Of a DNA stretch of 64,000 nucleotides, positions 24,001-41,042 are shown in pieces. Within the stretch, counting starts at the first letter, position 1, and each line of letters begins with the position of its first letter. The notes beneath the pieces are model-generated. The model did not search any database and was not told the DNA's origin. It saw only the letters and a program-made list of their open reading frames with translations. The DNA is from Rhodobacteraceae bacterium HTCC2150. Lineage in GTDB: Bacteria; Pseudomonadota; Alphaproteobacteria; Rhodobacterales; Rhodobacteraceae. The stretch covers positions 186,001-250,000 of the forward strand of contig AAXZ01000002.1 in the NCBI GenBank assembly GCA_000169395.1, given 5' to 3'. The position numbers and the translations under genes are program-made.

Positions 24001-24651
24001 TCAGCCGCAGTGACGCGCCCAAATTTCCACACGACGATTTTTAGGATCAGTGGTTGAAATGCCTTGTAAAGGAGCATCTTCGCCCTCACTCGTCACCTCA
24101 ATCCGCGTCGAGGCAAACGCAGTGCGATTGGTCAAATATCCCTTAACCGCCTTGGCACGCAACATGCCCATGTTGAAGTTGGCCTTTGCCGATCCACTGG
24201 TATCAGAATGCCCCACTAATTTCAGACAAGTTTGTGACAGTGAGGAGTACTGTAATATTCCCGCAAGCATATCCAAGTGTTGACCAAATTCTTCGACAAT
24301 AATGTCAGAACCTTGTGGAAAGTGAATGCGATAATCGTAATCGGCAGGCCGTGAAATCGTATTTGCTGGCATCAAAGGGTTCACCAATGAAACCGCCAAA
24401 ACTGGCTCAACAACAACTGCTGGTGCAACATTTTGAAAATCATTTTGCACCACATTCATTGGTTCAACGATCGTTTTGTGAACGGAATCATCACACGCAG
24501 AGGCATCCAATTTCAACAGTCGCGCCAGGGTGACACAGGTTTGTCTATCTGAACCTACGGCTTCATTGGCCTCAGCCGTTTGAGCCGCAGTTTGGGTTGC
24601 AAGAGACACCCAAATCAAAACGATTGTGGCAAAAAGTTTAACCGATTGCAT
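24001..24651 (-). CDS. Exported OmpA-family protein
   Basis: This 216-residue protein has a signal peptide (about residues 1-23, ending ATQTAAQ) and a C-terminal OmpA-like peptidoglycan-binding domain (about 100-213) with 'LVGHSDTSGSAKANFNMGMLRA' and 'DPKNRRVEIW' (both given in part). The central linker has no recognisable motif. It should sit in the periplasm and bind the cell wall. It is divergent from the polysaccharide-type cluster and may belong to it, but that is inference from position only. Confidence 0.82.
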   Translation of the reverse strand: MQSVKLFATIVLIWVSLATQTAAQTAEANEAVGSDRQTCVTLARLLKLDASACDDSVHKTIVEPMNVVQNDFQNVAPAVVVEPVLAVSLVNPLMPANTISRPADYDYRIHFPQGSDIIVEEFGQHLDMLAGILQYSSLSQTCLKLVGHSDTSGSAKANFNMGMLRAKAVKGYLTNRTAFASTRIEVTSEGEDAPLQGISTTDPKNRRVEIWARHCG

Positions 24652-24828: not shown

Positions 24829-25977
24829 ATGACAGTGCCAAGTGACAGAATGGTTTGGTTAGACGCACTTCGATTGATTGCGGGTATTTCTATGGTGGGC
24901 CTTCATGGTTCGACCGATGCAAATGGTCAGCCATTTCCTGATGCCAGCCCACCAGAACGTTTGGGCCCTCTTGTTTTCCGAATGATAATCTACACAGCGC
25001 GAACCGAGCTTTTCCTGATCATATCCATATTTTTGCTACTTATGGCGTTGGAACGTCGCCCGCGTGGATATTTCGAAACATTGAAAGAGCAAGCCCGCCG
25101 CTTGCTTATTCCGTTCGCATTTTGGACAGTTTTCTATGCCCTCTATTCGCTGATCAAGGCATATTCCTATGGTTATCAAGACGCCATTTTTAACGACTTA
25201 CAATCAGTTTCAGCTTGGCTGGGGTACTTTGTACTTGGTGATGTGAAATATCACATGCATTTCATTCAAACACTGTTTGCGCTTTTATTGTTCTACCCGT
25301 TGTTTCTGGTGGCAGTGAAGTATCCATTTCTTGGGTTATTGGTATTGATTTGTCTGGCGACTAAACGCGAAGCCGACGTTTATTTGTGGTCAAATTTGCA
25401 GAATAAAAATGGCTTTGACTACATCCTGCGCTTCGTAAAGGTTCTAACTTATTGCGGCTATGGTCTGATTGCAGGCGCATTTTGGGGTATATACAAAAAG
25501 CGGGATACTTTCACCTATCTCAATGATTGGTTCGTACTCATTTGTTATCTTGCCGTTTTGTTGCTGGGTATCAAAATAATATACACTCACAACGTCGCAA
25601 TCACTGGTGAATGGCAACATAATTTCACACCAGCGTTCTGGGCAGATTTTGTCATGCCAGCACTTTTGTTCGCAGCCCTTATGCTAAACGCGCACCGTAC
25701 ATGGCCGCCCATCATTTCAAGCCTAGCGCCATATAGTTTTGGAATTTACCTCTGCCATCCCATTTTTCTGGATCTATTCGAAAGTCTCATCAGAAACGTA
25801 CAACTTCTCCCATCCCTATATGTTTGCGCCAAAGTTTGTTTTGCTCTTTTTTTCACTTTCCTATTGGTCTTTTGCATAAAGAGAACACCTTTTTTGGCTT
25901 GGACAATAGGGTTGGGGAAAATTCCCTTTTTTGAAGGTGCCACGAAACGGCACGATCCCAAAACTTCGATTCATTGA
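24829..25977 (+). CDS. Membrane acyltransferase (acyltransferase-3 family)
   Basis: This integral membrane protein of about 382 residues begins 'RMVWLDALRLIAGISMVGLHG', the acyltransferase-3 signature with the histidine after the first helix, followed by roughly ten membrane helices. Such enzymes O-acylate surface polysaccharides or lipids. The ATG at 24829 is preceded by AGGA six bases upstream; the ATG at 24823 is an alternative. It opens the plus-strand cluster and is followed closely by the STAS-nucleotidyltransferase, so it likely modifies the cluster's glycan product. Confidence 0.85.
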   Translation: MTVPSDRMVWLDALRLIAGISMVGLHGSTDANGQPFPDASPPERLGPLVFRMIIYTARTELFLIISIFLLLMALERRPRGYFETLKEQARRLLIPFAFWTVFYALYSLIKAYSYGYQDAIFNDLQSVSAWLGYFVLGDVKYHMHFIQTLFALLLFYPLFLVAVKYPFLGLLVLICLATKREADVYLWSNLQNKNGFDYILRFVKVLTYCGYGLIAGAFWGIYKKRDTFTYLNDWFVLICYLAVLLLGIKIIYTHNVAITGEWQHNFTPAFWADFVMPALLFAALMLNAHRTWPPIISSLAPYSFGIYLCHPIFLDLFESLIRNVQLLPSLYVCAKVCFALFFTFLLVFCIKRTPFLAWTIGLGKIPFFEGATKRHDPKTSIH

Positions 25978-25988
25978 AAGTATCTCAC

Positions 25989-27479
25989 ATGTTTTCACTC
26001 ATAAATAACCTGCCGCACCTGCAAATCGTTCAAATCACGACGCGACAATTACGATCAGACGCAGTAGCCGGAATGCAGCGATGGTGCCCGCCCAAATCAA
26101 GCACAAAAATCACACTTTTTGATTTGTCAGGCGTGGGCAACGCTTCGGAAAGCGGTATCAGTGCCATGATCTTTATCGCGCAAGGCAACGCCAATGTTGG
26201 TTTTTTGGGCGCGAACCACAGCGTTCAACGAAAACTAGTTAAGCTAGGTCTAGATAAGGAACTGCGGCTATTTTCAGACGCAAAAGAAGCTTTAGAAAAT
26301 CCATGGGTAAAACGCAGACGACTAAAAGGAACCAAAGCTGTTGTTTTAGCAGCTGGCAAAGGATCGCGATGTGCACCTTTAACCTTCAACATGCCTAAGC
26401 CAATGCTACCCATTCTCGGCAGGCCAATTATCGAACATTTACTTGAACATTTCGGTCGATTTGGGTTGGAGGACGTCGTGATTAATCCCGTGTATCTGGG
26501 TCCCCAAATTATCCAGCATCTTAAATGCGGCGCCGCATTTGGAAAACATATTCAATACGCAAACGAAGGCCATTTTAAAGGCGAATTATGGTGGGATAAT
26601 GCTATCGGATCAGCCTCCAGCCTTTTAAAAATGCATCAAGAAAATGCGGCATTCTTTGATGACTTTTTTGTTTTTTGCGGGGATGCGCTGATTGATCTGA
26701 ACCTTGCAGAAATGATGGAACAGCACAAACGTTCAGGCGCAGCCGTTACCATCGCCGCCCAACGTGTTGATCCGACATGCGTTGAAAAATTTGGTATAAT
26801 TGATTGCAACTCCTTGGATCAAATTACAGCATTTCAAGAAAAGCCAAAGATATCAGAAGCAATTTCAAATCTCGCAAATACGGGGATTTATATATTCAAC
26901 CCCAGCATTCTGGACAAAATTCCCTTAATACAGGCCTGCGATATTGGCACACACTTGTTACCGAAACTGTTGGCCGAAGGCGTGGATTTAAATGTGTACC
27001 AATCCACCTTTACTTGGCTCGATGTGGGCTGTGGAAAGGACTTCTTTGACACTAATCATAAGATTTTGGATGGTGGCTATAAGTTTATCAAACATTCTGC
27101 CAAGGAATTTTCGCCGGGCCAATTTTTGTCTGAAGGCGCTGAAATAAATAGTAAAGCGAAGGTAAGCGGCCCTGTTTTTCTGGCTGAAAACGCTTACGTG
27201 GACGCAGGTGCAACGATCAATGGTCCTGTTTTTCTTGGTCCCAATTCTATTGCCGAAAAAGGATCATTCATAAAAAACAGCTTGTTGTTTCAAAATACGC
27301 GGGCACATAGCGGTGCATTTGTAGATGGAATGATAACAGATGGTAACTGGGCATTTGCCCATGCATTCGCAACAGCTGCGGCGTTGAACGTTTCGCCTCT
27401 TGATTACGTTTCGTCGACCACTGGAATTGCCAAAGATGGTCAACAAATCGAGCCTGTAAAACTTCGAATTGCGAGCTAA
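25989..27479 (+). CDS. STAS domain fused to sugar nucleotidyltransferase
   Basis: This protein of about 496 residues joins three parts. Residues 1-105 form a STAS-type fold with 'FDLSGVGNASESG', where Ser55 matches the phosphorylated serine of anti-anti-sigma factors, and a typical ending 'LVKLGLDKELRLF'. Residues 115-340 are a nucleotidyltransferase with AAGKGSRCAPLT (121 onward) and PKPMLPI. The C-terminus has hexapeptide-like repeats. The enzyme should make an NDP-sugar, likely GDP-mannose or UDP/dTDP-glucose type. The start is ATG 25989, though TTG 25974 overlaps the acyltransferase stop. The STAS fusion is unusual. Confidence 0.85.
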   Translation: MFSLINNLPHLQIVQITTRQLRSDAVAGMQRWCPPKSSTKITLFDLSGVGNASESGISAMIFIAQGNANVGFLGANHSVQRKLVKLGLDKELRLFSDAKEALENPWVKRRRLKGTKAVVLAAGKGSRCAPLTFNMPKPMLPILGRPIIEHLLEHFGRFGLEDVVINPVYLGPQIIQHLKCGAAFGKHIQYANEGHFKGELWWDNAIGSASSLLKMHQENAAFFDDFFVFCGDALIDLNLAEMMEQHKRSGAAVTIAAQRVDPTCVEKFGIIDCNSLDQITAFQEKPKISEAISNLANTGIYIFNPSILDKIPLIQACDIGTHLLPKLLAEGVDLNVYQSTFTWLDVGCGKDFFDTNHKILDGGYKFIKHSAKEFSPGQFLSEGAEINSKAKVSGPVFLAENAYVDAGATINGPVFLGPNSIAEKGSFIKNSLLFQNTRAHSGAFVDGMITDGNWAFAHAFATAAALNVSPLDYVSSTTGIAKDGQQIEPVKLRIAS

Positions 27480-27480
27480 A

Positions 27481-29340
27481 TTGCAAAATAAATATTTTGA
27501 TAACGCTAGGATTTCACCGATCCACCCTAAATCCTGTTTTTATTTCAGTAAATTTGAGGATCGGATCCCGTTAGCGCCTCAAAAACACAGCTCTATCGTA
27601 GAATTCCTTTGGCAAATGATGATGTCTGTCACAATTGCACTTGGTGCTTGGTACTTAATTTGGCGTTGGACATCATCATTAAACCCTGATGCTTTGGCGT
27701 TTTCTATTCTGGTTGCGACAGCCGAAACCCTCGCATATTTGGGCACCCTTTTATTCGCTTTTGATATTTGGTCGTGGGGCGACACCCCCCGCAAAATGGC
27801 ACCAAAAACACGGGCTAACGCTGGGTTATCTGGCAACGGGCCAATCAATATCGACATATTTATAACGACATATGATGAAGACCCAGAAATTGTTCGTCTC
27901 AGTATTAAAAACGCAAAAATGGTTAAGTCACCTCGAAACGCGAAAGTAAAAGTTTTCGTTCTGGATGACGGCGCCAGGTATTGTATGGCCCAAGTCGCCA
28001 AACAAGAGCAGGTCTCGTATCTTAGCCGATTGGACAACTTCGGCTATAAGGCGGGTAATCTTCGAAATGCCTTGTTCCACAGTACAGGCGATTTCTTTGC
28101 TATTTGTGATGCGGATACACGCCTATTCCCTAGTTTTTTGGAAAATACGTTGGGCTATTTTCGAGACCCTTCGGTGGCTTGGGTCCAAACGCCACATTGG
28201 TTTTACGACATTCCTGAATGCGACAGCTTCGGCAAAATATTAGTCAACTTCCCTCGACAGCTAACATTCTTAAAACTCAAAACCAAAAACGAAAAATCTA
28301 CAAATGACCAAGATCCTTTCCTTGTTGACCCAGGATATTTTTTTGATGTTATCCAACGACGTAGAAATAGGAACAACGCATCATTCTGTTGTGGTGCTGG
28401 TTCCATTCACCGTCGAGAAGCAGCATTTCAAGTTGCTAACATTCAATGGCAAAAATCTACTTTCAAATGCTCCAAACTCAATCCACTCAACGCCAAAATT
28501 ACGAAACGTTTTGCGATTCAACATTCGCAGATTGCGCCGTTTCAATTTCACGTGTCCGAGGACCTTCTTTCGTCGATTAAAGTGCATACAAATCCGAAAT
28601 GGAAATCAATCTACCATCCAATCGTCGAAAGTAAGATGCTGTCACCGTGGGGCATGAATGCATGGGCGGTACAGAAATTAAAGTACGCCGGCGGAACCTT
28701 TGACATAGCTATAAATCACAATCCAATTTTCAATTCGAAAATGCCATGGCGTCGAAAATTGCACTATCTTGCAACGTTTTTTTCCTATTTTTCATGCTTA
28801 TGGGTTTTGATCCTCTTGTTGACACCCATCCTCACTCTTTTCACGGGAATTATGCCTGTAAGTGCCTATTCTGTTGTGTTTTTTGCACATTTGCTACCAC
28901 TACTTATCACCAATGAAATTGCTATGATATTAGGTGGATGGGGGCACTCAACGCACAAAAGCGCACGCACGACGATAGCGACTCTTCCTATAAATCTACG
29001 CGCATTCTACTTGGCTCTAAGAGGCCAAAAATTTAAATTTCAACCAACCCCGAAGACACCCAAATTTGATGGTGCCCTTCGCTATATTCGGTTTCACTTA
29101 GGGATTCTTGTCTTAAGTTTTTTGGCCATCGTTTTTGGTTTTTGTAATTTTTTTCTATTCAACGGCACAAGTTCGGCTGCCTCACTAACTGTCAATGTAT
29201 TTTGGGCTTGTTGGAATGCCTGGTCAGTGATCCCCATCATTAGGGCCGCTTTCTGGAAACCTGCCAAAGGCCACGTTGCGCTCTCAACAAACAATTTGAA
29301 TTCTACAGAAGGAAGCCATCATCATGTCATCGCGAAATAA
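27481..29340 (+). CDS. Cellulose synthase-like family 2 glycosyltransferase, membrane
   Basis: This protein of about 619 residues has two N-terminal membrane helices, a cytoplasmic GT2 domain and a C-terminal block of about five helices. Catalytic motifs are visible: Asp162/163 (VLDDGA), DxD at 210-212 (CDADT), SED at 359-361 and QKLKY at 398, a variant of QxxRW. Processive synthases of the BcsA type make beta-glucans and export them through their own helices. The PilZ domain of BcsA is absent, so c-di-GMP activation by that route is not expected. No ATG precedes residue 46; TTG at 27469 or 27481 is the likely start. Base composition looks AT-rich. Confidence 0.85.
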   Translation: MQNKYFDNARISPIHPKSCFYFSKFEDRIPLAPQKHSSIVEFLWQMMMSVTIALGAWYLIWRWTSSLNPDALAFSILVATAETLAYLGTLLFAFDIWSWGDTPRKMAPKTRANAGLSGNGPINIDIFITTYDEDPEIVRLSIKNAKMVKSPRNAKVKVFVLDDGARYCMAQVAKQEQVSYLSRLDNFGYKAGNLRNALFHSTGDFFAICDADTRLFPSFLENTLGYFRDPSVAWVQTPHWFYDIPECDSFGKILVNFPRQLTFLKLKTKNEKSTNDQDPFLVDPGYFFDVIQRRRNRNNASFCCGAGSIHRREAAFQVANIQWQKSTFKCSKLNPLNAKITKRFAIQHSQIAPFQFHVSEDLLSSIKVHTNPKWKSIYHPIVESKMLSPWGMNAWAVQKLKYAGGTFDIAINHNPIFNSKMPWRRKLHYLATFFSYFSCLWVLILLLTPILTLFTGIMPVSAYSVVFFAHLLPLLITNEIAMILGGWGHSTHKSARTTIATLPINLRAFYLALRGQKFKFQPTPKTPKFDGALRYIRFHLGILVLSFLAIVFGFCNFFLFNGTSSAASLTVNVFWACWNAWSVIPIIRAAFWKPAKGHVALSTNNLNSTEGSHHHVIAK

Positions 29341-30652
29341 TTTTACGGCATTGGGCATCAATGTTGCTTTTCTCTTGGGTCTTAGTGGTGCAGCAGGAAT
29401 TGCAATTGCTGTCGATTCCCCTCCTGCGCGCAATTATCACAAAGCGATTGATCCCGCGAAAAGAACTGCCGCGTCAATTGCCTTGCAACGTGTCACTCAG
29501 CGCACTCTCACATCCAAGGAAGTTGACGCCGCGAATGCCGCATGGAGTTACATCAAAAACAATACACAATCAGAAACCGGATTTGTAAATTCTGTAGATA
29601 ATTTTCCTTCGACCACGCTGTGGGACCTTGGTTCATATATATTTGCCCTAATTGCAGCAGAAAAAATTGGGGTTATCGAGGCACCGGAACTGGTAAATCG
29701 AGCGGACCTCGTGGTGCACTCGCTAAGCAGACTCCCGCTCGTTGACGGGCTTCTACCTAACAAGGTGTATAATACTAAAACGCTCGCAATGACGGATTAT
29801 GAAAACAATCCCTCAATTGGCGGAATTGGATGGTCCGCGCTGGATTTGGGTCGCCTCCTACTCGCCTTAAAAGTACTCAGCAATCGAGTTCCAGAGTTGG
29901 ATACAAAAATTAGAAAATTGAACACATCCTGGTCGCTGGCAGAAATGTCAAAAAATGGCTACCTTTCCGGATCCCACCGTTTAAACAGCCAATCACTGGA
30001 GCGTCGCCAAGAGGGACGAATTGGATATGAACAATACGCTGCCCGAGCAGCATTGTTATATGGATTGGATGCGTTGCATGCCGCGACGCCAGTCGACAAT
30101 CTAACTTGGAAAAAAGTGGAAGGGGTGAATATTCCGATCGATGTTAGACGATTTCAGGATTTTAGTGCAATTACGCCAATAACAAGTGAGCCATACTTTA
30201 TGATGGCCCTTGAAATGGGATTGGATACGGATAGCAGCCTACACGCGTTCCAAGTTTATCGTGCGCAAGAAGCGCGGTTTACAAAGACTGGAATACGAAC
30301 GTTAGTTTCAGAAGATCACCTAAATGACGCGCCCTATTTTGCCTATAGTACGGTTTTTGGAAACGGAAAGAGCTGGGCAGTTCTTGGTGAGGACGGGACT
30401 GAGTACCCTGATTTTCGAACCATAAGTTTGAAGTCAGCATTTGCTTGGAACGCGATTTATCAAACCAAATACACGCACGAAACCCTGGCATTGTTGGATG
30501 ATCTCAAATCCAACGAAGATGGGTGGATGGCCGGTCGTTTTGAAAATTCTTCCGAAAATAATACAGCTTTGTCTTTGAATACGAACGCGATTGTTCTTGA
30601 ATCCTTACACTACACAGAATTTGGGTCATTCCTAAATTCATACCGACACTAA
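29324..30652 (+). CDS. DUF3131 protein, exported (copy 1)
   Basis: This 442-residue protein has an N-terminal signal or anchor (residues 8-29) and a DUF3131 region with 'FVNSVDNFPSTTLWDLGSY', 'LPNKVYNTKT', 'ALDLGRLL' and 'RRQEGRIGYEQYAARA'. The helical-repeat look recalls (alpha/alpha)-toroid glycoside-active folds, but no activity is proven. It overlaps the glycosyltransferase gene by 17 bases with GAAGGAAG upstream, so the two are co-translated. It is a divergent paralogue of the gene at 32331-34031. Periplasmic glycan processing is a reasonable guess. Confidence 0.85.
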   Translation: MSSRNNFTALGINVAFLLGLSGAAGIAIAVDSPPARNYHKAIDPAKRTAASIALQRVTQRTLTSKEVDAANAAWSYIKNNTQSETGFVNSVDNFPSTTLWDLGSYIFALIAAEKIGVIEAPELVNRADLVVHSLSRLPLVDGLLPNKVYNTKTLAMTDYENNPSIGGIGWSALDLGRLLLALKVLSNRVPELDTKIRKLNTSWSLAEMSKNGYLSGSHRLNSQSLERRQEGRIGYEQYAARAALLYGLDALHAATPVDNLTWKKVEGVNIPIDVRRFQDFSAITPITSEPYFMMALEMGLDTDSSLHAFQVYRAQEARFTKTGIRTLVSEDHLNDAPYFAYSTVFGNGKSWAVLGEDGTEYPDFRTISLKSAFAWNAIYQTKYTHETLALLDDLKSNEDGWMAGRFENSSENNTALSLNTNAIVLESLHYTEFGSFLNSYRH

Positions 30653-30714
30653 ATTTAACCTCAGAGTGATTCACAAAGGGATCTTAGAACTTCCAACTTG
30701 GCAATCTTTTAGGT

Positions 30715-32334
30715 TTATGGCTTGGCCGAGTGTAGCACCGTTCTCAGATATTCTGAAAGTGTCACGAATTCGCGCGATATTTGTGCTTGCACAATAGGTT
30801 TTTCCGCCTCATCAACCAGCGAAGGAACATCAACTTGCTTGATAGGCAAAGTTTTCGCGTCATTTTCCAGATCCGACAAAATTTTCATAACCATTCGATC
30901 TGAAAGCAGCGTTGAGGTGTCATTGCCTTCTGTACCCGTTCCTGCAATTTCCTTTTGTTCAGTTCCGTTGACTGAGGATTCCAACAACGTCAAAAGCAAC
31001 GACGCGCTGCTTTTTGAAATCCCAAGTTCTGAAGACAATTGAGTTATGGTATCCGTCGCCACAGGTGAAATTGGGGCTCGGCTATCACCCAACAAAGTCT
31101 TTGCTTCGTCTTCAAACCTCTTACTAACTTCTGAATCCATTTCAGAAGTTTTATTTCGCGCCGCAAGCAACTTTTCAAATATTTTTTCCACTTCATCGTT
31201 GGCCAATGCCGCGTCATTTGCTTTATTTACAGCCATTTCATCGTTGTAATTAGAAACCTCCGGCTTAATGGCTTTTGGTGCCGTATTTTCAGAAATGGCC
31301 AATTCAATAGTTTTCAAGTCGGACAAAACTTGTATCATGCTGATTTCTAACTTCGACAAACGAACTTGATAATCAAGCGATGAATCAACCCCCTTGCCCA
31401 AGGCATGTGCTTCTCCCCGATGAAAACTAGTCAAAGGAAGGGTTTCTCCTTCATCAATCATTGGATCATGCACAGAGTTCGGTTTGTTTTGCGCCAACAA
31501 GGCCTGGCGTAGGGCATCAATTTCCGAGCTTAATTGCTCCATTCCCTCACCTACCGCATTTGCATTCTGTAGTGTAGTGTTTCCCATCAAATTTGCGGTT
31601 TCATTGTCATCTGGAACCAATCGTGACGACCAAACGGAATCGTTGAAAGATGAATTTTCAGAAATTGGTGTGTTTGAGCTGGGAACAGGCCAATCACGCG
31701 GGAGAATTGTGTAATTTTGTTCGGCTGCAACCCATCGCAAATATGGAACAACAGCAGAAAACCCATTTAGAGAAATAGTGTGCACATCCTCAGAATCTCG
31801 CCGGATTATGAGCTCACCTCCTGCCATCAACAAAGTTTCCAAACGCGAATCCAATGGCAAAAAAAGCCGCTCTGGAAGTTGAAGTTCGCTGACGCCTTCG
31901 GAAACAAAAAACGTATCGCCTTCTAAAAGTTGATCAATTTTCAACTGAACACGACCACGAGAATCCAAAACAATTGTTAGGGCATCTTTTCTGGCAATAC
32001 ACAAAAGTGTTCGTGGCCGGCAAATTACTTCAAATACATCGGTGTCCAATCGCGGAGAGGTCGAAAATCGTGCATAACCATCTGGATCAAAGCGAAAATA
32101 GACGCCTTCCACAAGCCCTTCTTGGAACGTGTCCCACCCAAATGCGCCGCGTAAAGATTGTCGAGCTTGTCTTGCACCAATGGCAAAAGGAATTGCTGTA
32201 TCAATGACGGCATTTTCAGGATCGAATTGGTCAGCGGTTTTGGGGGGCAGTGCGCTTTGTGCCATTGCGCCACCAGTAAAATTTATTTGTCCAAACGCTA
32301 AAAGACATGTGGTTAGCAATAATTTGCGCATCAT
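30715..32334 (-). CDS. Exported protein of unknown function
   Basis: I do not recognise this protein of about 539 residues. It has a signal peptide (MMRKLLLTTCLLAFGQ...GGAMAQ), a structured N-terminal half (to about residue 225) with mostly beta-strand character and several Cys, and a polar, Ser/Glu/Asn-rich second half with helical stretches. It overlaps the DUF3131 copy 2 gene by 4 bases (ATGA), so it is the second gene of that minus-strand pair. A periplasmic role in the same export pathway is inferred from this coupling. Confidence 0.7.
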   Translation of the reverse strand: MMRKLLLTTCLLAFGQINFTGGAMAQSALPPKTADQFDPENAVIDTAIPFAIGARQARQSLRGAFGWDTFQEGLVEGVYFRFDPDGYARFSTSPRLDTDVFEVICRPRTLLCIARKDALTIVLDSRGRVQLKIDQLLEGDTFFVSEGVSELQLPERLFLPLDSRLETLLMAGGELIIRRDSEDVHTISLNGFSAVVPYLRWVAAEQNYTILPRDWPVPSSNTPISENSSFNDSVWSSRLVPDDNETANLMGNTTLQNANAVGEGMEQLSSEIDALRQALLAQNKPNSVHDPMIDEGETLPLTSFHRGEAHALGKGVDSSLDYQVRLSKLEISMIQVLSDLKTIELAISENTAPKAIKPEVSNYNDEMAVNKANDAALANDEVEKIFEKLLAARNKTSEMDSEVSKRFEDEAKTLLGDSRAPISPVATDTITQLSSELGISKSSASLLLTLLESSVNGTEQKEIAGTGTEGNDTSTLLSDRMVMKILSDLENDAKTLPIKQVDVPSLVDEAEKPIVQAQISREFVTLSEYLRTVLHSAKP

Positions 32335-34031
32335 AATTTTGTCTCCGATTGTACAGCATGCCTTAGAGCGGGCAGCCAATTATCTTGGGTAAATGGATCT
32401 GGAAGGTGTTTTCGTTCCCTGGCGTCTTGCTCGCGAAACGCGGTATACCAAACCTCGGTTTCACCTAAGTAGGGCGTGAGAAGTTTCCCCTGAACTTTGT
32501 GAAGCAACGATCCTAAAATAATGCCGTTAATGTTGGCGGTATAGATTTCAATCTTACCCTGCCCACCTTCGTAAAGCCCCTCATACATGCCGTTTTCAGG
32601 ATTATAGAGTTCAACAATCGCCTCAAACAAATCATCCGTGTAGGGCGTATCCCATAATGACCAAAGACCCATTGCAGCCTTGGCGGAAACCGCTGAATGA
32701 TCTGGTGCATAGTCACCGCGCGGGGTTACAGTATTCCAAGGATATCCATCCGAGAATATCGTGTCATAGGTAAAATATGGGGGGCCTTTGACGTTGTGCT
32801 CGGATCGCGCGGTTAAAAATCCAGTATGTGTGTAACGTTGTTCTTGTACCAAATAAATTCGATCTGCAAACTCCGCCCGCCATCCGTCTGAATGCATGCG
32901 GTCCTTACTGCTGTTACCATGTGGCATGTCAAAACCGAATTCTAAGCCATCCAGCAAATATGATTCTGTCACAACATAATTTTGAGAATGGAAAATCCGC
33001 GGATCACGACCATCATAGGGAACCGCCACACCAAATATACTCGCCGTCAGGAACGGCTCAGCGCGGTGGGCAAGCAACGGGCGAAAACCCCAAAGAGCAA
33101 ATCCCTTAGCTGCGTATTCTTCATAACCAAGCCGCCCTTCTTGAGCGTACTTAATCTCTTTGGTTTTTTTGTCGATATACGCGCCTACGAGCAGTCCCTC
33201 GGATGAAATTGCATTGGAGTAATCCCATTTCAAAAGAACGCTGTCGATGGTGTTGCCCAGATATGGATATCGGTTTTTTAATATCCGCATCCAAACAAGA
33301 AATCGCCCAATGTCTAATGCGGAAAAGCCAACTTCGCCCGGTTTGTTCGTATAATCAACCTGCGCACCCGTCTTGGTGTGGTACACTTTATTGGGCAATT
33401 CACCTCGAAAGAGTTTCAGCCCCTTAAATGTTGTAAGTAGGCGAAATACTCGATCATCAAATTCCGGTTTTTCGATCAAACAAAGTTCATAGGCGGAAAC
33501 CAAACCACTAATATAAGAGGCAGTATCCCACATGGTTGTCGAAGGAAAATTTCCAACAGAATTGGCAAGACCGGTTGTGGGTTGCGTAAATTTCTCAAAG
33601 TAATGCCATGCGACCTTAGCCGCGCGCATTTCGCGTTCGGTCAAAAAACCACGTCTGTCCTTAAACTTACGCACATACCCATTTCGACGCGTATACCCGA
33701 CAGGTAGATCAACGTCCAATTCTGCCTTTTCAAAGTAATCTTTGGGCATTTCACACATGCGCGGAACCCTTGGCGTTTTAGTTTCGCCATATGCAAGGCT
33801 GGTTGTAACCGAAGGACGATTTCCGCGCATCAAAGCCGGAATATCATCAAGATCACTGCCCGCAATAACAGGGTCAATTTCTTCCTCTTGATACAACATC
33901 ACACTACGCGCAACCTGACTCGCTGCAAAAGCAGTTGCCGTAATCACAAAGAAAGAGAGCGTAAAAGCAAGCAGACCAAAACGCGGCGTTTTTCGCGAGC
34001 TACCATAAAAGGAAGAAAGTCGTTTTTTCAT
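32331..34031 (-). CDS. DUF3131 protein, membrane-anchored (copy 2)
   Basis: This protein of about 566 residues has an N-terminal membrane anchor (about residues 18-40) and a DUF3131 region from about 120. It shares with copy 1 the blocks 'LANSVGNFPSTTMWDTASY', 'LPNKVYHTKTGAQVDY', 'ALDIGRFL', 'QEGRLGYEEYAAKG' and 'PPYFTYDTIFSDGYPW'. Several acidic residues conserved between the copies (the Glu of QEGR, the Asp of LWD/MWD) could be catalytic. The ATG at 34031 has AGGACG upstream. It is divergent from the ABC-HlyD pair. Confidence 0.85.
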   Translation of the reverse strand: MKKRLSSFYGSSRKTPRFGLLAFTLSFFVITATAFAASQVARSVMLYQEEEIDPVIAGSDLDDIPALMRGNRPSVTTSLAYGETKTPRVPRMCEMPKDYFEKAELDVDLPVGYTRRNGYVRKFKDRRGFLTEREMRAAKVAWHYFEKFTQPTTGLANSVGNFPSTTMWDTASYISGLVSAYELCLIEKPEFDDRVFRLLTTFKGLKLFRGELPNKVYHTKTGAQVDYTNKPGEVGFSALDIGRFLVWMRILKNRYPYLGNTIDSVLLKWDYSNAISSEGLLVGAYIDKKTKEIKYAQEGRLGYEEYAAKGFALWGFRPLLAHRAEPFLTASIFGVAVPYDGRDPRIFHSQNYVVTESYLLDGLEFGFDMPHGNSSKDRMHSDGWRAEFADRIYLVQEQRYTHTGFLTARSEHNVKGPPYFTYDTIFSDGYPWNTVTPRGDYAPDHSAVSAKAAMGLWSLWDTPYTDDLFEAIVELYNPENGMYEGLYEGGQGKIEIYTANINGIILGSLLHKVQGKLLTPYLGETEVWYTAFREQDARERKHLPDPFTQDNWLPALRHAVQSETKL

Positions 34032-34228
34032 TGAATGCGTCCTATGTTGCCCCATTGATAGAACGCCGAAAGTTAAAATCTACATAACCGGCAATCATAA
34101 AATTTCAGCTGTCTTGATCTTTAGTTTTGGTTAACTCAATCGAAATGATAAATTTACGAATTCCGACTATCGCTGGTGTTTGACGGGAACTTGAACAGAC
34201 GTATTCAAGCAAATCCCCCACGCAAAAT

Positions 34229-34234
34229 AGGAGG
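34229..34234 (+). promoter_or_regulatory. Consensus Shine-Dalgarno that sets a TTG start
   Basis: AGGAGG at 34229-34234 lies 7 bases before TTG at 34242. It is the best ribosome binding site around this gene and favours TTG 34242 over the upstream GTG at 34176, which has no such site. Confidence 0.7.
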
Positions 34235-34241
34235 CGATCCC

Positions 34242-36179
34242 TTGGCTGATTTCGTGAAGACCGACACCAAACCACCCTCAAATCAGCCATTGTTCCGCGA
34301 CCGTGCAATGCCACGGTGGGCCTTCATTCTAACCTGGCTTTTTGGTACGCTCAGCTCGCTATGCTGGATTTCGCTGGCTGTATTTGCGTTGCTTTTTCAA
34401 TCAATGGTTATTGAAACTGGAAATAAGGGCGCGATTCCAATCCTTGCCGTTCTTGCGGTTGTTCCGGTAATTGCGGCGTTGATTTTGGACTATTCCTACG
34501 TTCGAGCATTGGCAGGGTATGGCATGCAGCGTGGTCCTGCTGAATTACGCGTGCGGGCCGCTATTGCAGGCGTGTTGGTTCTTTGTTTAGCGTTCGTGCA
34601 TCCATTTTTACCATTAGGCATCGTTTTTGGTGGATTTACAGGTTTTGCCCTTGTCCGGCTTTACTGGGCAATCGTTGACCGTGATCGCCTTTGGGACTTT
34701 AACCCCGAAGAGGCGGCATCGATTTTTTCAGGTCGAGATAAATTGGGGTTCAAAATGGCGAAAAACACACCCCCAACATCGCCCAGTTTTCTGCGCAGCT
34801 TAAGGAATGTTGCCTCTGCTGTTGGTTTTGTGGTGACACTTGTTGTTGGAAGTTGGCTTGCGGCAAACAACGTAATTACCTCATCTGCTGTTTTTGCCGC
34901 AATTCTCTTCAGCCTTTGGTCAACCGAAGCAATTGGTTCTTACATTTCAATGCTTCAATTTGAAAAACCGCCGTCTTACACTCGCGCAGGGAATGTCATT
35001 CAAATTGAAGCACCTCTTGATGCAAAATCAGCTGACCACAAGGGATTGTGGGTTCACGATCTTTCAGTTTCTACGGATTGTGGTGAAAAACTGCTGAGCA
35101 ATATCAACATTGAGGTGCCCTCCGGCACTTTGGTTGGAATAATCGGCGCACCGGCCAGTGGTAAAAGCCTACTTTTATCTAGCCTGATTTCCCCTTTTGA
35201 TCTGTGTGCACTAAATATCGAAGGCTCTGTTGAATTCAACGAGGTAAATTTGTGGGACCGAAGTGCACGTTCACAAATTGTGCCTGCCGTATATTTGCCA
35301 AAAGAACCCATTCTATTGCCTACAAGTGGTTCACAAAATCTAACTTGTTTCCAAGACGATCGCGTCAAAGAACGTGCCCGTAAAGTTATGGAGCAAATGC
35401 TTTATTCCGGCGAAGCTGCTGACAGAATTCTAAACGCTCACGATGCCACTTTATTGTCTGCGAGCGAACAAAAAGCACTTAGTTTTGCGCGGGCATTCAT
35501 CCTGAACCCTGGTTTATATCTTATTGATCAGCCCGAGGTCAGCGCATCAGAAGCAATGATCGCCGCCCTTTGCCAGCGTTTTCAGATAGAACGCCGCGCT
35601 GGTCGATCCTTTGTGGTTGCGACCGATAACCGTGCCATCCATGAAATGGCCGACTTTCTGTTGGTCATGAGCGACGGAAAAGTCATCGATTATGGGCCAT
35701 CTGATGATGTGCGCGCACGTATGTCTTCGGGTTGGGCCCGTTTGGTTGTTGATCGGAATTTGGACAGCGAAGAAACCGTTCAAAATTGGATCCGAAGTCA
35801 CTTTCGTCGTGATGGAGATGAAAAAAATCGACGTAATATCAGCATTGTTGCATCCGAAATGCTCGCGCTGTCATGCCAAGATGCCACTTCTTTTGCAGAG
35901 GATCGAGTTAGCTTTGATTTTAAGCACCAAAAAGAACAGTGCATTTTACGCTTTAAGGATCAGGGTGAGCTTTTGACTAGTGGCCAAATGGCAAAGGCCG
36001 GCGCAACAAATTCCGTAAATTCTAACAGCGATGAGCAAACTGCATTGGCCCGCGTATTGCGGGGAACTTTGTCGTTTGATCAATCACTTGTCGATGGGGT
36101 ACGTACCGTTTCGGTTACAATAAAAACATATGACCCTAGGCTGACCAAACGCGATCAGGTTGTTGAAAATGCCGATTAG
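34242..36179 (+). CDS. ABC-type export protein with degenerate ATPase and extra C-terminal domain
   Basis: This protein of about 645 residues has a membrane part with about six helices (to about residue 260), then an ABC ATPase-like domain and an extra C-terminal domain. Walker A is intact (GAPASGKS), but the Q-loop Gln is Lys (YLPKEP), the signature is LSASEQ, Walker B reads LYLIDQP with Gln instead of the catalytic Glu, and the H-loop His is lost (VVATDN). ATP hydrolysis is therefore doubtful. The C-terminal domain (bases 35778-36140) shares RDGDE and VASEM, with identical spacing, with the ABC protein at 58253-60400. It overlaps the HlyD-like gene. Confidence 0.78.
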   Translation: MADFVKTDTKPPSNQPLFRDRAMPRWAFILTWLFGTLSSLCWISLAVFALLFQSMVIETGNKGAIPILAVLAVVPVIAALILDYSYVRALAGYGMQRGPAELRVRAAIAGVLVLCLAFVHPFLPLGIVFGGFTGFALVRLYWAIVDRDRLWDFNPEEAASIFSGRDKLGFKMAKNTPPTSPSFLRSLRNVASAVGFVVTLVVGSWLAANNVITSSAVFAAILFSLWSTEAIGSYISMLQFEKPPSYTRAGNVIQIEAPLDAKSADHKGLWVHDLSVSTDCGEKLLSNINIEVPSGTLVGIIGAPASGKSLLLSSLISPFDLCALNIEGSVEFNEVNLWDRSARSQIVPAVYLPKEPILLPTSGSQNLTCFQDDRVKERARKVMEQMLYSGEAADRILNAHDATLLSASEQKALSFARAFILNPGLYLIDQPEVSASEAMIAALCQRFQIERRAGRSFVVATDNRAIHEMADFLLVMSDGKVIDYGPSDDVRARMSSGWARLVVDRNLDSEETVQNWIRSHFRRDGDEKNRRNISIVASEMLALSCQDATSFAEDRVSFDFKHQKEQCILRFKDQGELLTSGQMAKAGATNSVNSNSDEQTALARVLRGTLSFDQSLVDGVRTVSVTIKTYDPRLTKRDQVVENAD

Positions 36180-37533
36180 GGGGCAAGCAAAAATACCCCC
36201 TGAACCCCACTCATCGTCTCTGGTGTTGCGAACGTTTTCTTGGGCGGCGTTTGGTCTTGGTGCGACCGCTTGCCTTTTAGTTTTCGTTTATATGTCAGTA
36301 TCAGAATTAGTTTTGCCCCAAACAGGTACATATGTTGGCGAGATGCGGCCAAATTTTCAGATATCTACAGTTGAATTACCAGCAAACAGCCAGCTCTCCA
36401 GAGTTTTTGTGAAAGAAGGCGACGTTGTAAAAAAAGGCGATATCCTATTTCAACTCAACTATACTGCTCTTACTCAAGAAAGCGAACGACTGAATAGAAC
36501 GTTGCTTGGCCTACGATTGCAAAGGCAATGCCTGCTGAAATGGCCCAAAAATCCATTTACCAAAGCCGAACTCCTTGACCGACGCAAAAGCCTGCGTAAT
36601 CCCGAAGATCAATTTGTCTTTGATGCCGCCTCATCAGAGTGTCAAACGGAAGGCGCGGGCTTTGAAAGGGGATCTTTGTCCCATAACGAAACAATGAAGA
36701 AACTGGAAAAACGGATTTACTTGTTGAAGAAGAAGCTGTCTCTGTTAACAAATTCCCCAGATTTGGCAAAGGCGACTTCGCAATCAAAACTAAGCCTTGC
36801 ATATGAAGCACTTTCTGTTGCTTTAGCCCAAAACATTACAGAACTGACCCGCTCAACTATAGATGATAAGCACGCAGAAACACTAAAAACGCAAAAATCT
36901 GAAAAATTTTCACGCGCAATGGAAATCCATGGCACCATCGAAAATATTGCAGATACTCAAAGCTTGTTGACCAATTTTCTTGCCCACCCAGAAATTCGGG
37001 CAGAAATTGATGGGCAAGTTGCCCGTGTTCGTGATGACCAGTTAAACGGACAATATGCTGCGGGCGTTCCACTAATAGATTTGCGCGTAATTGAAGAAAA
37101 TGATTTTCGCGTAACGTTTGCAATACCCGCAACAGAAGCAGGTAATTTGCGAATTGGGAAGCTCGTTGAAATCGTTACCATTGGTCTTTCGAAACAAAGT
37201 CCATTGTTAAAAGGGCACGTGACCGACATTTCTACGACGCATAGTGCAGGTGAGATCGACAGCTTGACGATAGAAATTGCCTTGAACAATGGATCGAGGG
37301 CGATTTTGGAAGGCTCGACAACTGGTCTGGCGCTGCACGACAAACAAACGGCTGCAACCGTAAAGGTCGCTTTGGCGCCTACAGCATTTTTGCCCGACTT
37401 TATTGGGACCTTGCATCAAGCATTTGGCGGAATAACGAGCCCATTTAATAAAATTCAAACATTCCTTGATCAATCTGCAAGGCATGCTGAATTTGACCAA
37501 AATGAATACTTGTCAAATTTTGGTGGGCTCTAA
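36169..37533 (+). CDS. HlyD-like membrane fusion protein
   Basis: This protein of about 454 residues has a single N-terminal membrane helix (about 20-43), a lipoyl half ('SRVFVKEGDVVKKGDILFQL'), a helical middle with heptad-like character, the second lipoyl half ('EIRAEIDGQVARV') and a beta-barrel. This is the layout of adaptors of type I secretion and some polysaccharide exporters. It starts inside the ABC gene (11-base overlap), so the two are partners. A C-terminal tail of about 60 residues goes beyond the usual barrel. Confidence 0.8.
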   Translation: MPIRGQAKIPPEPHSSSLVLRTFSWAAFGLGATACLLVFVYMSVSELVLPQTGTYVGEMRPNFQISTVELPANSQLSRVFVKEGDVVKKGDILFQLNYTALTQESERLNRTLLGLRLQRQCLLKWPKNPFTKAELLDRRKSLRNPEDQFVFDAASSECQTEGAGFERGSLSHNETMKKLEKRIYLLKKKLSLLTNSPDLAKATSQSKLSLAYEALSVALAQNITELTRSTIDDKHAETLKTQKSEKFSRAMEIHGTIENIADTQSLLTNFLAHPEIRAEIDGQVARVRDDQLNGQYAAGVPLIDLRVIEENDFRVTFAIPATEAGNLRIGKLVEIVTIGLSKQSPLLKGHVTDISTTHSAGEIDSLTIEIALNNGSRAILEGSTTGLALHDKQTAATVKVALAPTAFLPDFIGTLHQAFGGITSPFNKIQTFLDQSARHAEFDQNEYLSNFGGL

Positions 37534-37567: not shown

Positions 37568-38410
37568 TTAGAAATCCGAACCCAAAGATGAGGACATTTT
37601 CTTTTGACGCCATTGCGTAGTAATAAACGCAGCGATGAAAAAAACTGTCATCACCAGAACTATGGTGGCAGCTGGCGCAGAATTTAAAAAGAAACTTGCA
37701 TAAACACCAATAAACGACGAACTTAAAGCCACTAAAAATGAAACAGTCATCATCTTATAGAACTCTCGTGTCAACAAAAACGCAATCGCACCAGGTGCGA
37801 TCAAAAATGAAATTGCCAAAATAATTCCAACAGATTTCAGCGCCGAAACTATTGTCATCGATAAAGCAATCAAAAGAGCATAATGTAAGAACCGAACGGG
37901 CAAACCCGCCGCTTTGGCCTGTGCAGCATCAAACGCACAAAGTAGTAGATCACGCCACCTCAGCAAAATGCCGCCGCCCACCAGAACTGCGACAAGAGCG
38001 ACTTCAATCAGATCAAAGCGAACCAAACCCAAAATATTTCCATATAAAATATGATCCAAATGAACGTCGCTTTGAATTGCGGTATACATAACCAGACCGA
38101 TAGCAAACATGCCTGAAAACACGATACCCATCACCGTATCTTGCTTAACACGGGTATTTTCAGCAATAAATCCAGTGGCAATTGCACAAAATAATCCCGC
38201 AAAAAACGCACCGATTGCTAAGGGAGCACCCAAAATGTAGGCCAGAACGATACCGGGTAAAACCGCATGACTGACGGCATCACCCATCAGAGACCAACCT
38301 TTCAAAATCAAAAAGCACGACAATAAAGACATCGGCACCGACAGCAAAATCGCCCCCCAAAAAGCAAATCGCATAAACTCAAACTGAAAAGGAAGCAGTA
38401 AGGTTTCCAT
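37568..38410 (-). CDS. sitD: Manganese/iron ABC transporter permease
   Basis: This 280-residue protein has about eight membrane helices and the ABC-3 permease pattern ('LKGWSLMGDAVSHAVLPGI', 'ISFLIAPGAIAFLL'). It is homologous to the adjacent permease (38410-39270), and the two form the membrane pore of the Sit system. Gene order sitABCD and the one-base overlap with sitC support the name. It is the last gene of the operon. Confidence 0.9.
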   Translation of the reverse strand: METLLLPFQFEFMRFAFWGAILLSVPMSLLSCFLILKGWSLMGDAVSHAVLPGIVLAYILGAPLAIGAFFAGLFCAIATGFIAENTRVKQDTVMGIVFSGMFAIGLVMYTAIQSDVHLDHILYGNILGLVRFDLIEVALVAVLVGGGILLRWRDLLLCAFDAAQAKAAGLPVRFLHYALLIALSMTIVSALKSVGIILAISFLIAPGAIAFLLTREFYKMMTVSFLVALSSSFIGVYASFFLNSAPAATIVLVMTVFFIAAFITTQWRQKKMSSSLGSDF

Positions 38411-39270
38411 TAGGTTTCTGGCCCCAAAAGAGCCAGTCGCGCCTTGGCACGCGCGGCAAGTACGCCGTGTTTTGGGGCAAAAACGAAGGCTAACCCAAAC
38501 AACAAGGTTTGAAATAAAACGATGATACCACCGGTTGCTCCATCTAAAAAGAAACTAGCGTATGCGCCAAAGCCTGATGAGAAAACACCTATGGCAAGTG
38601 CGATCAAGATCACGCGATGAAACCGATCCGAAAGTAAATATGCTGTGGCCCCCGGCGTAACCACCAATGCAATAACCAAAAATGCACCCACTGTTTGCAT
38701 TGCAGCAACCGCGGATGCAGCAAGCAATGTGAAAAACACAACGCGCATCACATTCGGGTTGATGCCAATTGATTTTGCATGGTGCTCATCAAAAAACGTC
38801 ACCATCAAATCTTTCCATTTCAGTGTCAAAACCAACAACGAAATACCTGCGATCAAGGACAACTGCAGAATATCATGTGGCGTGATTGCCAGAATATTAC
38901 CCATGGCAATGGTTTGAATGTTCACGGATGTAGGCGACAGCGATACCATGAATAGACCCAGTCCGAAAAATGACGTAAATATCAGCCCGATGATGGCATC
39001 TTCTTTTAAACCAGTGCGTTGGTTCAAAAACAACATGGCAACCGCCGCTAGCCCGCCAGAAAAAAAAGCGCCCAATGCAAACGGTAATCCAAGCATGTAA
39101 GCACCCGCCACACCTGGAACGATCGCATGACTAAGTGCATCCCCGATCAAGGACCACCCCTTAAGCATCAGAAAAACCGATAAAAAAGCGCATACCCCAC
39201 CCACAAGTGACGACACCCAAATGGCGTTGATCATATAAGAATATGAAAAGGGTTCCAAAAGAACGCTCAC
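38410..39270 (-). CDS. sitC: Manganese/iron ABC transporter permease
   Basis: This 286-residue multi-spanning protein carries the ABC-3 family segments '[19 protein letters not shown]' and '[16 protein letters not shown]'. With SitD it forms the channel for divalent metal uptake through the inner membrane. It overlaps the ATPase gene by 4 bases and sitD by one base. The similarity to SitD indicates an old duplication, as is usual for this transporter type. Confidence 0.9.
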
Positions 39271-40112
39271 TCTACGTCCTTTTCATTGTACATTACGAAT
39301 GGCCGTTCATCGTCGGTGATGACCGTCACCTGTCTTTGGTCATCGTCATCATTGTGCAAATCCGCGCCCCCCAAAACAAAATGACGCAACACGCCTCCAA
39401 ATGTTTTTTCAAGGTTCAAAGGCGTGAATGTTTCTTTGGTGGTTCCGTGGGCTAAAACTGTTCCTTTAATCAGAACGCAGCGATCACAGAATTCGGGCAC
39501 CGAACCAAGGTTATGTGTGGAAACAAGCATAACCCGACCTTCGTTCCGCAACTCGATCAGCAACTTGATGATCGCCTCTTCTGTTGTGACATCAACGCCA
39601 GTAAATGGTTCGTCTAGTAAAATTACTTGGCCTTCTTGTGCCAAAGCCCGCGCCAAAAAAACGCGTTTCTTTTGGCCGCCCGATAATTCACCGATTTGCC
39701 GTTTAAGAAAATCTGCCATCCCAACACGCGTTAAGGCATCAGTAACCAGTTTTTGATCACGCTCTGATGGGCGGCGAAAAAATCCCATGTGACCATAACG
39801 TCCCATCATTACGACATCTTCGACAAGAACGGGGAAAGACCAATCGACCTCTTCGGCTTGGGGAACATATGCCACCAAATTTTGACGCAATGCTTGGGCA
39901 ACAGGCATGCCCAATATTTGTATCTGGCCCCGCGCGAGCCGTAAAAAACCCATCAGTGCTTTAAAGAGCGTCGATTTCCCTGAACCATTCACACCAACAA
40001 GCGCAGTTATGGTGCCCCCTGGAATAGTGAAACTTGCATCCCTAAGCGCAGTGGTGCCGTTACGATACGTAACAGTAACGTTGTCTACACTTAGGCCTGG
40101 TTGCGAGTTCAT
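39267..40112 (-). CDS. sitB: Manganese/iron ABC transporter ATPase
   Basis: This 281-residue ATPase has Walker [10 protein letters not shown], signature [13 protein letters not shown], Walker [11 protein letters not shown] and H-loop STHN, all intact. It energises uptake by SitCD from SitA. It overlaps sitA and sitC by 4 bases each, giving a tightly coupled operon. A short acidic/His-containing C-terminal tail ([11 protein letters not shown]) could hold metal, though that is only a guess. Confidence 0.93.
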
Positions 40113-40984
40113 TTTGAAAGGGCCTCGGCAATGCGGGCTGATGTGACCTGCAATAATGAAATGTAATCGGGCACGGCACCATCAGGGGCGGAAAGGCTGT
40201 CAACGTACAGAATGCCGCCGTAGGTCGCGTTGGTTTCGCGTATTACCTGTTTTGCAGGCGCGTCTGATACGGTGCTTTCGGAAAACACAACCGCGATATC
40301 GTGCTTGCGAACAGTATCTATAACCGCCTTAACCTGACGTGGGCTGCCTTGCTGATCCGCATTCATGGGCCAAAGGTAAACTTCGCGTAGGCCAAAATCA
40401 CGGGCCAGATAACTGAATGCGCCTTCGCTTGTTACCAACCAACGTTCGTTTTCCGGCAACACAGCAAGTTGCGCCGCAATTGGGTCAATCTGGGCGGCAA
40501 TCTTTTGTTTATAATTCGCAGCATTCGCCAAATATCCTGCGGCATTGGCAGGATCATATTTCACCAGTGCCGCCGCGATATTATCAACGTATAACTGACC
40601 GGCGCTTGGCGACATCCACGCATGAGGATTTGCCTTACCAGTATAAGGCCCCTTGCTGATTGAAATCGGTTCAACGCCCTCCGAGACAATCGCACTAGGA
40701 ACGTCTTTGAGGGATGAAAAAAATCGCTCAAACCAAAGTTCAAGCCCAAGACCATTCCACAGAACCAAATCGGCATCTTGCGCGCCGACAATGTCACGTG
40801 GGGTTGGCTGATACCCATGGATTTCGGCGCCCGGCTTGGTAATGGATACAACATCTGCATAATCCCCCGCCACGTTCTGGGCCATATCAGCGATGATGGT
40901 AAAGGTTGTAACGACCTTGAATTTGTCCGCAAAAATCGGTGATCCGGCAAAGACAAACAGTAAAACGAACGACAAAAGGCGCAT
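40109..40984 (-). CDS. sitA: Manganese/iron ABC transporter substrate-binding protein
   Basis: This protein of about 291 residues has a signal peptide ([19 protein letters not shown]) and the cluster A-I binding fold. Likely ligands are the His of GAEIHGY, the His of NPHAW, the Glu of TSEGAF and the Asp of LYVDS. The His-His-Glu-Asp set and the absence of a His-rich loop fit Mn/Fe binding of the PsaA/SitA type rather than zinc. ATG 40984 is best spaced from AGGG; ATG 40993 is an alternative. A Fur/Mur-like box lies upstream. Confidence 0.9.
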
Positions 40985-41042
40985 GATCGGCATCCCTAAA
41001 AGGTAAATTCGCCTTTTAATATGGATGGCAATCACACCAATT

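Follow-up and report, generated by a model that had tools for sequence, protein, structure and literature searches.

An envelope glycan system, conserved in Rhodobacterales and other proteobacteria and apparently unnamed, that likely makes a beta-glucan

OPG systems of the OpgGHC type combine an inner-membrane glucan synthase, a periplasmic glucanase and an OpgC-like acyltransferase, and cyclic glucan synthases (CGS) unite a GT84 synthase and a cyclisation domain in one protein. GT2 beta-glucan synthases carry the published signature D, D, D, QxxRW, in which the Trp makes a stacking contact with the acceptor glucose (PMC6821405). The DUF3131 family is hardly mentioned in the open literature, with three papers out of 5.39 million; its only mention with gene context is accessory block 3b of Klebsiella pneumoniae, which lists a cellulose synthase, three DUF3131 proteins, OpgC, a hybrid kinase, an anti-sigma factor and an antagonist, with no function given (PMC12974863).

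The gene cluster described here lies in a window of 64,000 nucleotides (the whole stretch of DNA analysed, numbered from its first letter) from Rhodobacteraceae bacterium HTCC2150, and is related to the Klebsiella block by listed content, the two being compared by the listing alone. It shares the predicted inner-membrane glucan synthase, periplasmic glucanase and OpgC-like acyltransferase with OPG systems, but its synthase and glucanase belong to other families. The cyclisation domain of CGS is homologous to its DUF3131 proteins, but here these are separate proteins, and the synthase is a BcsA-like GT2 rather than a GT84 enzyme. OpgG/OpgD (PF04349), present in 82 of the 199 family genomes examined, had no match in the window genome, from which CGS (PF10091) is also absent. 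Replacement of other OPG systems was considered and not retained, as OpgG occurs in 4/16 genomes that carry the system (p 0.20, not significant); likewise, CGS occurs in 0/16 (p 0.6, not significant). No name for the system was found in the open literature, in agreement with the preliminary description, which knew of no named system with this combination. We conclude that the cluster is part of a system for an envelope glycan, conserved and apparently without a name, whose product is likely a beta-glucan and plausibly a beta-1,2-linked one.

The eight genes, their families and their arrangement in three blocks are as first described. Block 1 (plus strand, 24829-30652) encodes a membrane acyltransferase 3 protein (24829..25977; Pfam Acyl_transf_3, E 7e-44) with a weak likeness to OpgC/MdoC (NCBIfam MdoC, E 1.7e-4), a fusion of STAS with a sugar-1-phosphate nucleotidyltransferase (NTase) that has left-handed helix repeats (25974..27479; NTP_transferase, 3e-41), the GT2 synthase (27469..29340) and a short DUF3131 protein (29324..30652). 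Block 2 (minus strand, 30715-34055) encodes an unnamed exported protein (30715..32379), which had no Pfam match, and a long DUF3131 paralogue (32331..34055), the best conserved protein of the set. Block 3 (plus strand, 34176-37533) encodes a degenerate ABC protein with a short transmembrane region (34176..36179) and a HlyD-like membrane fusion protein (36160..37533; Pfam HlyD_3 and Biotin_lipoyl_2; TIGR01843, 5.6e-14). The cluster is tightly packed, as had been noted, but several annotated starts are those of the longest open frame and some overlaps shrink on correction: by comparison with relatives, ATG 25989 is the likelier start of the STAS-NTase gene and 32334 that of the unnamed protein. 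A gene outside the limits first drawn, encoding an OmpA-domain periplasmic protein (24001..24651, minus strand; Pfam OmpA, E 1e-11), adjoins the acyltransferase gene divergently, and because this place is kept in about 15 Rhodobacterales loci it is a probable member of the cluster.

The AT-richness that had been taken as a hint of separate ancestry amounts to a modest dip in GC (44.7% in the cluster, 49.9% upstream and 47.6% downstream). It does not support a foreign origin, since GC3 in the cluster genes (0.38-0.45) is similar to the values of their neighbours (0.42 for dusA). Directly downstream, four overlapping minus-strand genes (37568-41035) show a strong AT skew; the first two look by eye like ABC-type multi-membrane permeases, perhaps of a metal-uptake operon.

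The association of these genes was examined in 199 genomes from the family of the window genome, the GT2 clade being defined at E <= 1e-60. DUF3131 is present in 42 of the 199, in strong short or long forms in 18, and the GT2 clade is present as a single copy in 16. All 16 are among the 18 strong-DUF3131 genomes (Fisher p ~1e-21); the remaining two are fragmented assemblies. Two gene orders recur, acyltransferase - STAS-NTase - GT2 - DUF3131 and unnamed protein - DUF3131 - ABC - HlyD, sometimes at separate places within one genome, and the long DUF3131 protein is about 52-75% identical across the system loci of the family. The set thus recurs together in other genomes, and the proposal that its genes form one pathway is borne out by repeated gene order and co-occurrence.

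The closest solved structures to the GT2 protein are BcsA chains (E 3e-62), and the motifs DDG, DxD (DAD), ED (SED), KAG (in QKLKYAGG) and the TxK of the gating loop (FxxTPK) are kept, which supports the earlier view of it as a beta-glucan-like synthase. Its CelA match (2.8e-46) is far below the model cut-off, and its TIGR03030 score is 158 against a cut-off of 699. In the GT2 clade, SED is present in 100/100 sequences and QxxKY replaces QxxRW in 99/100, the exception having QxxRY; the acceptor-stacking Trp is thus Tyr throughout. By sequence, the protein is nearest to BcsA yet falls in a clade of its own, in which acceptor geometry or linkage is possibly altered. The kinship with BcsA would also suit a cellulose-like or mixed-linkage (1,3/1,4) exopolysaccharide, with a long, secreted chain made by the GT2 protein and with DUF3131 in the role of BcsZ or ExoK. 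The Trp to Tyr change argues against this alternative, as does the lack of any Pfam match to PilZ or BcsB among the cluster proteins, and we regard it as rather unlikely.

The DUF3131 proteins bear on the same choice. The AlphaFold model of the short protein (pLDDT 91, pTM 0.88), predicted to be a membrane-anchored periplasmic alpha/alpha-barrel, gave in Foldseek 20 top matches that without exception belong to the clan or are GH144-like (E to 1.9e-10, TM 0.56-0.65), i.e. beta-1,2-glucan enzymes (GH144, SGL and CGS). BcsZ, which would fit the cellulose-like alternative, was also matched, but far more weakly (E 6e-4). The DUF3131 profile alone matches the CGS cyclisation domain 8wy1 (E 3.8e-6), and its profile-profile match to cyclic glucan synthases is 96%; the Pfam E-values of the two paralogues are 1e-121 and, for the long one, 1.5e-115. 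Both fold and profile therefore place beta-1,2-glucan enzymes first. From the model and these matches, DUF3131 shares the fold of beta-1,2-glucan enzymes (GH144, GH189, GH192-194), and this supports the periplasmic trimming that had been proposed.

Five residues are near-invariant in 198 DUF3131 sequences: E230 (in the motif QEGR), R232, D174, D273 and E297. E230 is present in 194/198, with Asp in the rest, and E297 in 197/198. In GH189, the acid/base lies within SEAR and the nucleophile within ISES (PMC10834661, PMC12102758); judging by motif and spacing, E230 and E297 are likely the counterparts of these two residues. The mapping was aligned over the first ~127 residues and made by motif beyond, where a global alignment is meaningless. 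E236 was dropped as the catalytic acid, as it varies (181/198) whereas E230 does not. Elsewhere in the window genome, a short remnant of DUF3131 that contains a stop codon (contig C17, 82089-82193) is 59% identical over 32 residues to the long DUF3131 protein of the window and looks like a decayed extra copy. A separate DUF3131 family of about 815-1160 aa, with no GT2 neighbourhood, was seen at loci L053-L063 and L080.

Scanning GTDB genomes with the GT2 profile yielded at least 314 relatives, which belong to the alpha-, beta- and gammaproteobacteria. The best 80 of these include Vibrio, Photobacterium, Shewanella, Ferrimonas, Thiothrix, Leucothrix, Azotobacter, Ramlibacter, Sphaerotilus, Burkholderia, Sphingomonas, Microvirga, Devosia and many Rhodobacterales. 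In 67 loci of at least 15 kb, DUF3131 is present in 61, STAS in 61, an acyltransferase in 28, a receiver-SpoIIE phosphatase in 50 and an anti-sigma-type HATPase in 30, and the gene order recurs in distant taxa. One locus (G264) reads phosphatase, STAS, nucleotidyltransferase, HATPase, GT2, three DUF3131, unknown, GH16 and second GT2. GH16 genes lie near 13 of the 67 loci and a GH26 gene beside one, which would also fit a beta-1,3/1,4-glucan and counts in favour of the cellulose-like alternative. The sole GH16 gene of the window genome (contig C10, 11065-11556) lies away from the cluster, unlike in several relatives. Sheath formation was also considered, as Sphaerotilus, Thiothrix and Leucothrix carry loci, and was set aside: the sole published Leptothrix sheath gene found, lthB, is a GT8 and not a GT2.

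Most relatives have, beside the synthase, an RsbU/V/W-type partner switch (PP2C, STAS and HATPase genes) and an outer-membrane barrel. Six of the 67 loci (L125, L137, L140, L151, L153 and L158) have the GT2 clade, phosphatase and STAS with no DUF3131 within ~9 kb, and five of the six have HATPase; these loci suggest that the link of the synthase to the switch is tighter than that to DUF3131. The arrangement in relatives resembles RsbU/RsbV/RsbW and SypE/SypA, but the window differs, its STAS being fused and devoid of the Ser, and PP2C phosphatase and HATPase kinase having no Pfam match in the cluster; the window genome has a HATPase_c_2 gene outside the cluster. The STAS domain at the N-terminus of the fusion is faint in a single-sequence search (E 0.005) but matches the separate STAS proteins in profile-profile comparison (prob 99, E 4.7e-18), which makes it a true relative of these by sequence. 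The phospho-serine is present in 64/64 separate STAS proteins and in 0/19 STAS-NTase fusions, two of which have Thr; the window STAS has Glu at this position (NASESG). At locus L036, STAS and NTase are separate genes and the DSSG motif is intact. The NTase motif GKGSRCAPLTFNMPKPM is intact in the window but the active-site motif is lost in three fusions of relatives (L040, L043 and L047), so these three would be unable to supply NDP-sugar.

Comparable losses affect the ABC protein. Walker A is kept in 22/22 relatives, but the catalytic Walker-B Glu and the H-loop His are each present in 0/22. Because these residues are missing, ATP-driven export is unlikely and a role as a scaffold is more likely for this protein; export through an active ABC-HlyD bridge, as first proposed, is accordingly doubtful. 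Its fold is nearest, though poorly (TM 0.32), to PrtD and HlyB, as would be expected if block 3 were a type I secretion system (ABC-HlyD) next to the glycan genes by chance. This explanation is highly improbable: the ABC clade occurs in 12/18 system genomes and in 0/22 controls, the gene adjoins that of the long DUF3131 protein in most loci, and the ATPase residues are lost. The HlyD-like gene adjoins the ABC gene in several relatives. The C-terminal domain of the ABC protein is possibly, on weak signals, HATPase/anti-sigma-like (Pfam E 0.11; profile probability 37-41% over 36-37 columns, reversed control 0.4%); it has no relative among solved structures, and the secondary structure of its model is compatible with HATPase.

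The loss of the phospho-site, of the ATPase residues and, in three relatives, of the NTase motif could mean that the locus is a regulatory island, in which STAS, the degenerate ABC protein and GT2 are mainly sensors of envelope state and little or no polymer is made in the branch of the window. We hold this to be improbable, since the catalytic motifs of GT2 and DUF3131 are strongly conserved in the same genomes and the NTase motif of the window is intact.

The outer-membrane beta-barrel-like protein of other loci (W[DN]PD motif, C-terminal F) was found in 42 examined loci, none of which has the ABC clade, and is absent from the window genome. Its presence in most loci fits secretion, which is a further point for a cellulose-like polymer. 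The unnamed protein of the window ("Unk") has no barrel, but its N-domain is related to the N-terminal domain of the longer of these barrel proteins: it matches the barrel protein of an Azotobacter locus (L136, E 1.6e-18), and the barrel N-domain in profile-profile comparison (prob 98, E 3e-13). The branch of the window would therefore have kept the periplasmic domain without the barrel. In Jiella mangrovi (L119, 11903-15451), a protein of 1182 aa combines the N-domain of the unnamed protein with a very long linker rich in Lys, Pro and Ala and with a C-terminus that looks by eye like a peptidoglycan-binding one. The window cluster is thus, by sequence comparison, a derived Rhodobacterales branch with neither partner switch nor barrel. 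The first interpretation stands in part; it overlooked the larger family to which the cluster belongs, the partner switch and outer-membrane barrel found there, and the kinship of the unnamed protein with the barrel N-domain.

The explanation that we favour, and consider fairly probable, is an envelope beta-glucan system that synthesises, trims and acylates a glucose polymer of the periplasm or the cell surface. The nucleotidyltransferase would supply an NDP-sugar, probably NDP-glucose, which the BcsA-like GT2 would polymerise, moving the chain across the inner membrane; in the periplasm, the two membrane-anchored DUF3131 enzymes would cut this chain or join it anew, and the acyltransferase would decorate it, as the preliminary description had also inferred. 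In most relatives, production is probably switched by the SpoIIE phosphatase, STAS and anti-sigma-type kinase whose genes adjoin that of the synthase, and the product probably crosses the outer membrane through a dedicated barrel. In the branch of the window, the STAS on the nucleotidyltransferase, lacking a phosphorylation site, is probably a docking module, and a static scaffold in the envelope is probably formed by the ATPase-deficient ABC protein together with the HlyD-like and OmpA-like proteins and the periplasmic protein that lacks the barrel. More tentatively, and as a possibility that we hold with limited confidence, the loci, which span alpha-, beta- and gammaproteobacteria, may represent a further class of glucan system, periplasmic or at the cell surface. 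Its GT2, lacking QxxRW, would make a glucan of beta-1,2 type, DUF3131 would cut or cyclise it, and an RsbU/V/W-type switch, replaced in Rhodobacterales by a fixed docking domain, would act directly on the synthase or on its supply of NDP-sugar, and not on a sigma factor.

If true, this would assign a role to the recurrent DUF3131 family, for which none is known, and would define an envelope glycan widespread in bacteria from the sea, from soil and from symbioses; a relative is listed in Klebsiella. It is unusual for a synthase gene to lie so often beside a protein-phosphorylation switch, and these loci would make it testable whether a partner switch may act on polysaccharide synthesis and not on transcription. 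They would also offer a clear evolutionary example of a phosphorylation switch that, once fused to a metabolic enzyme, loses the site of its phosphate.
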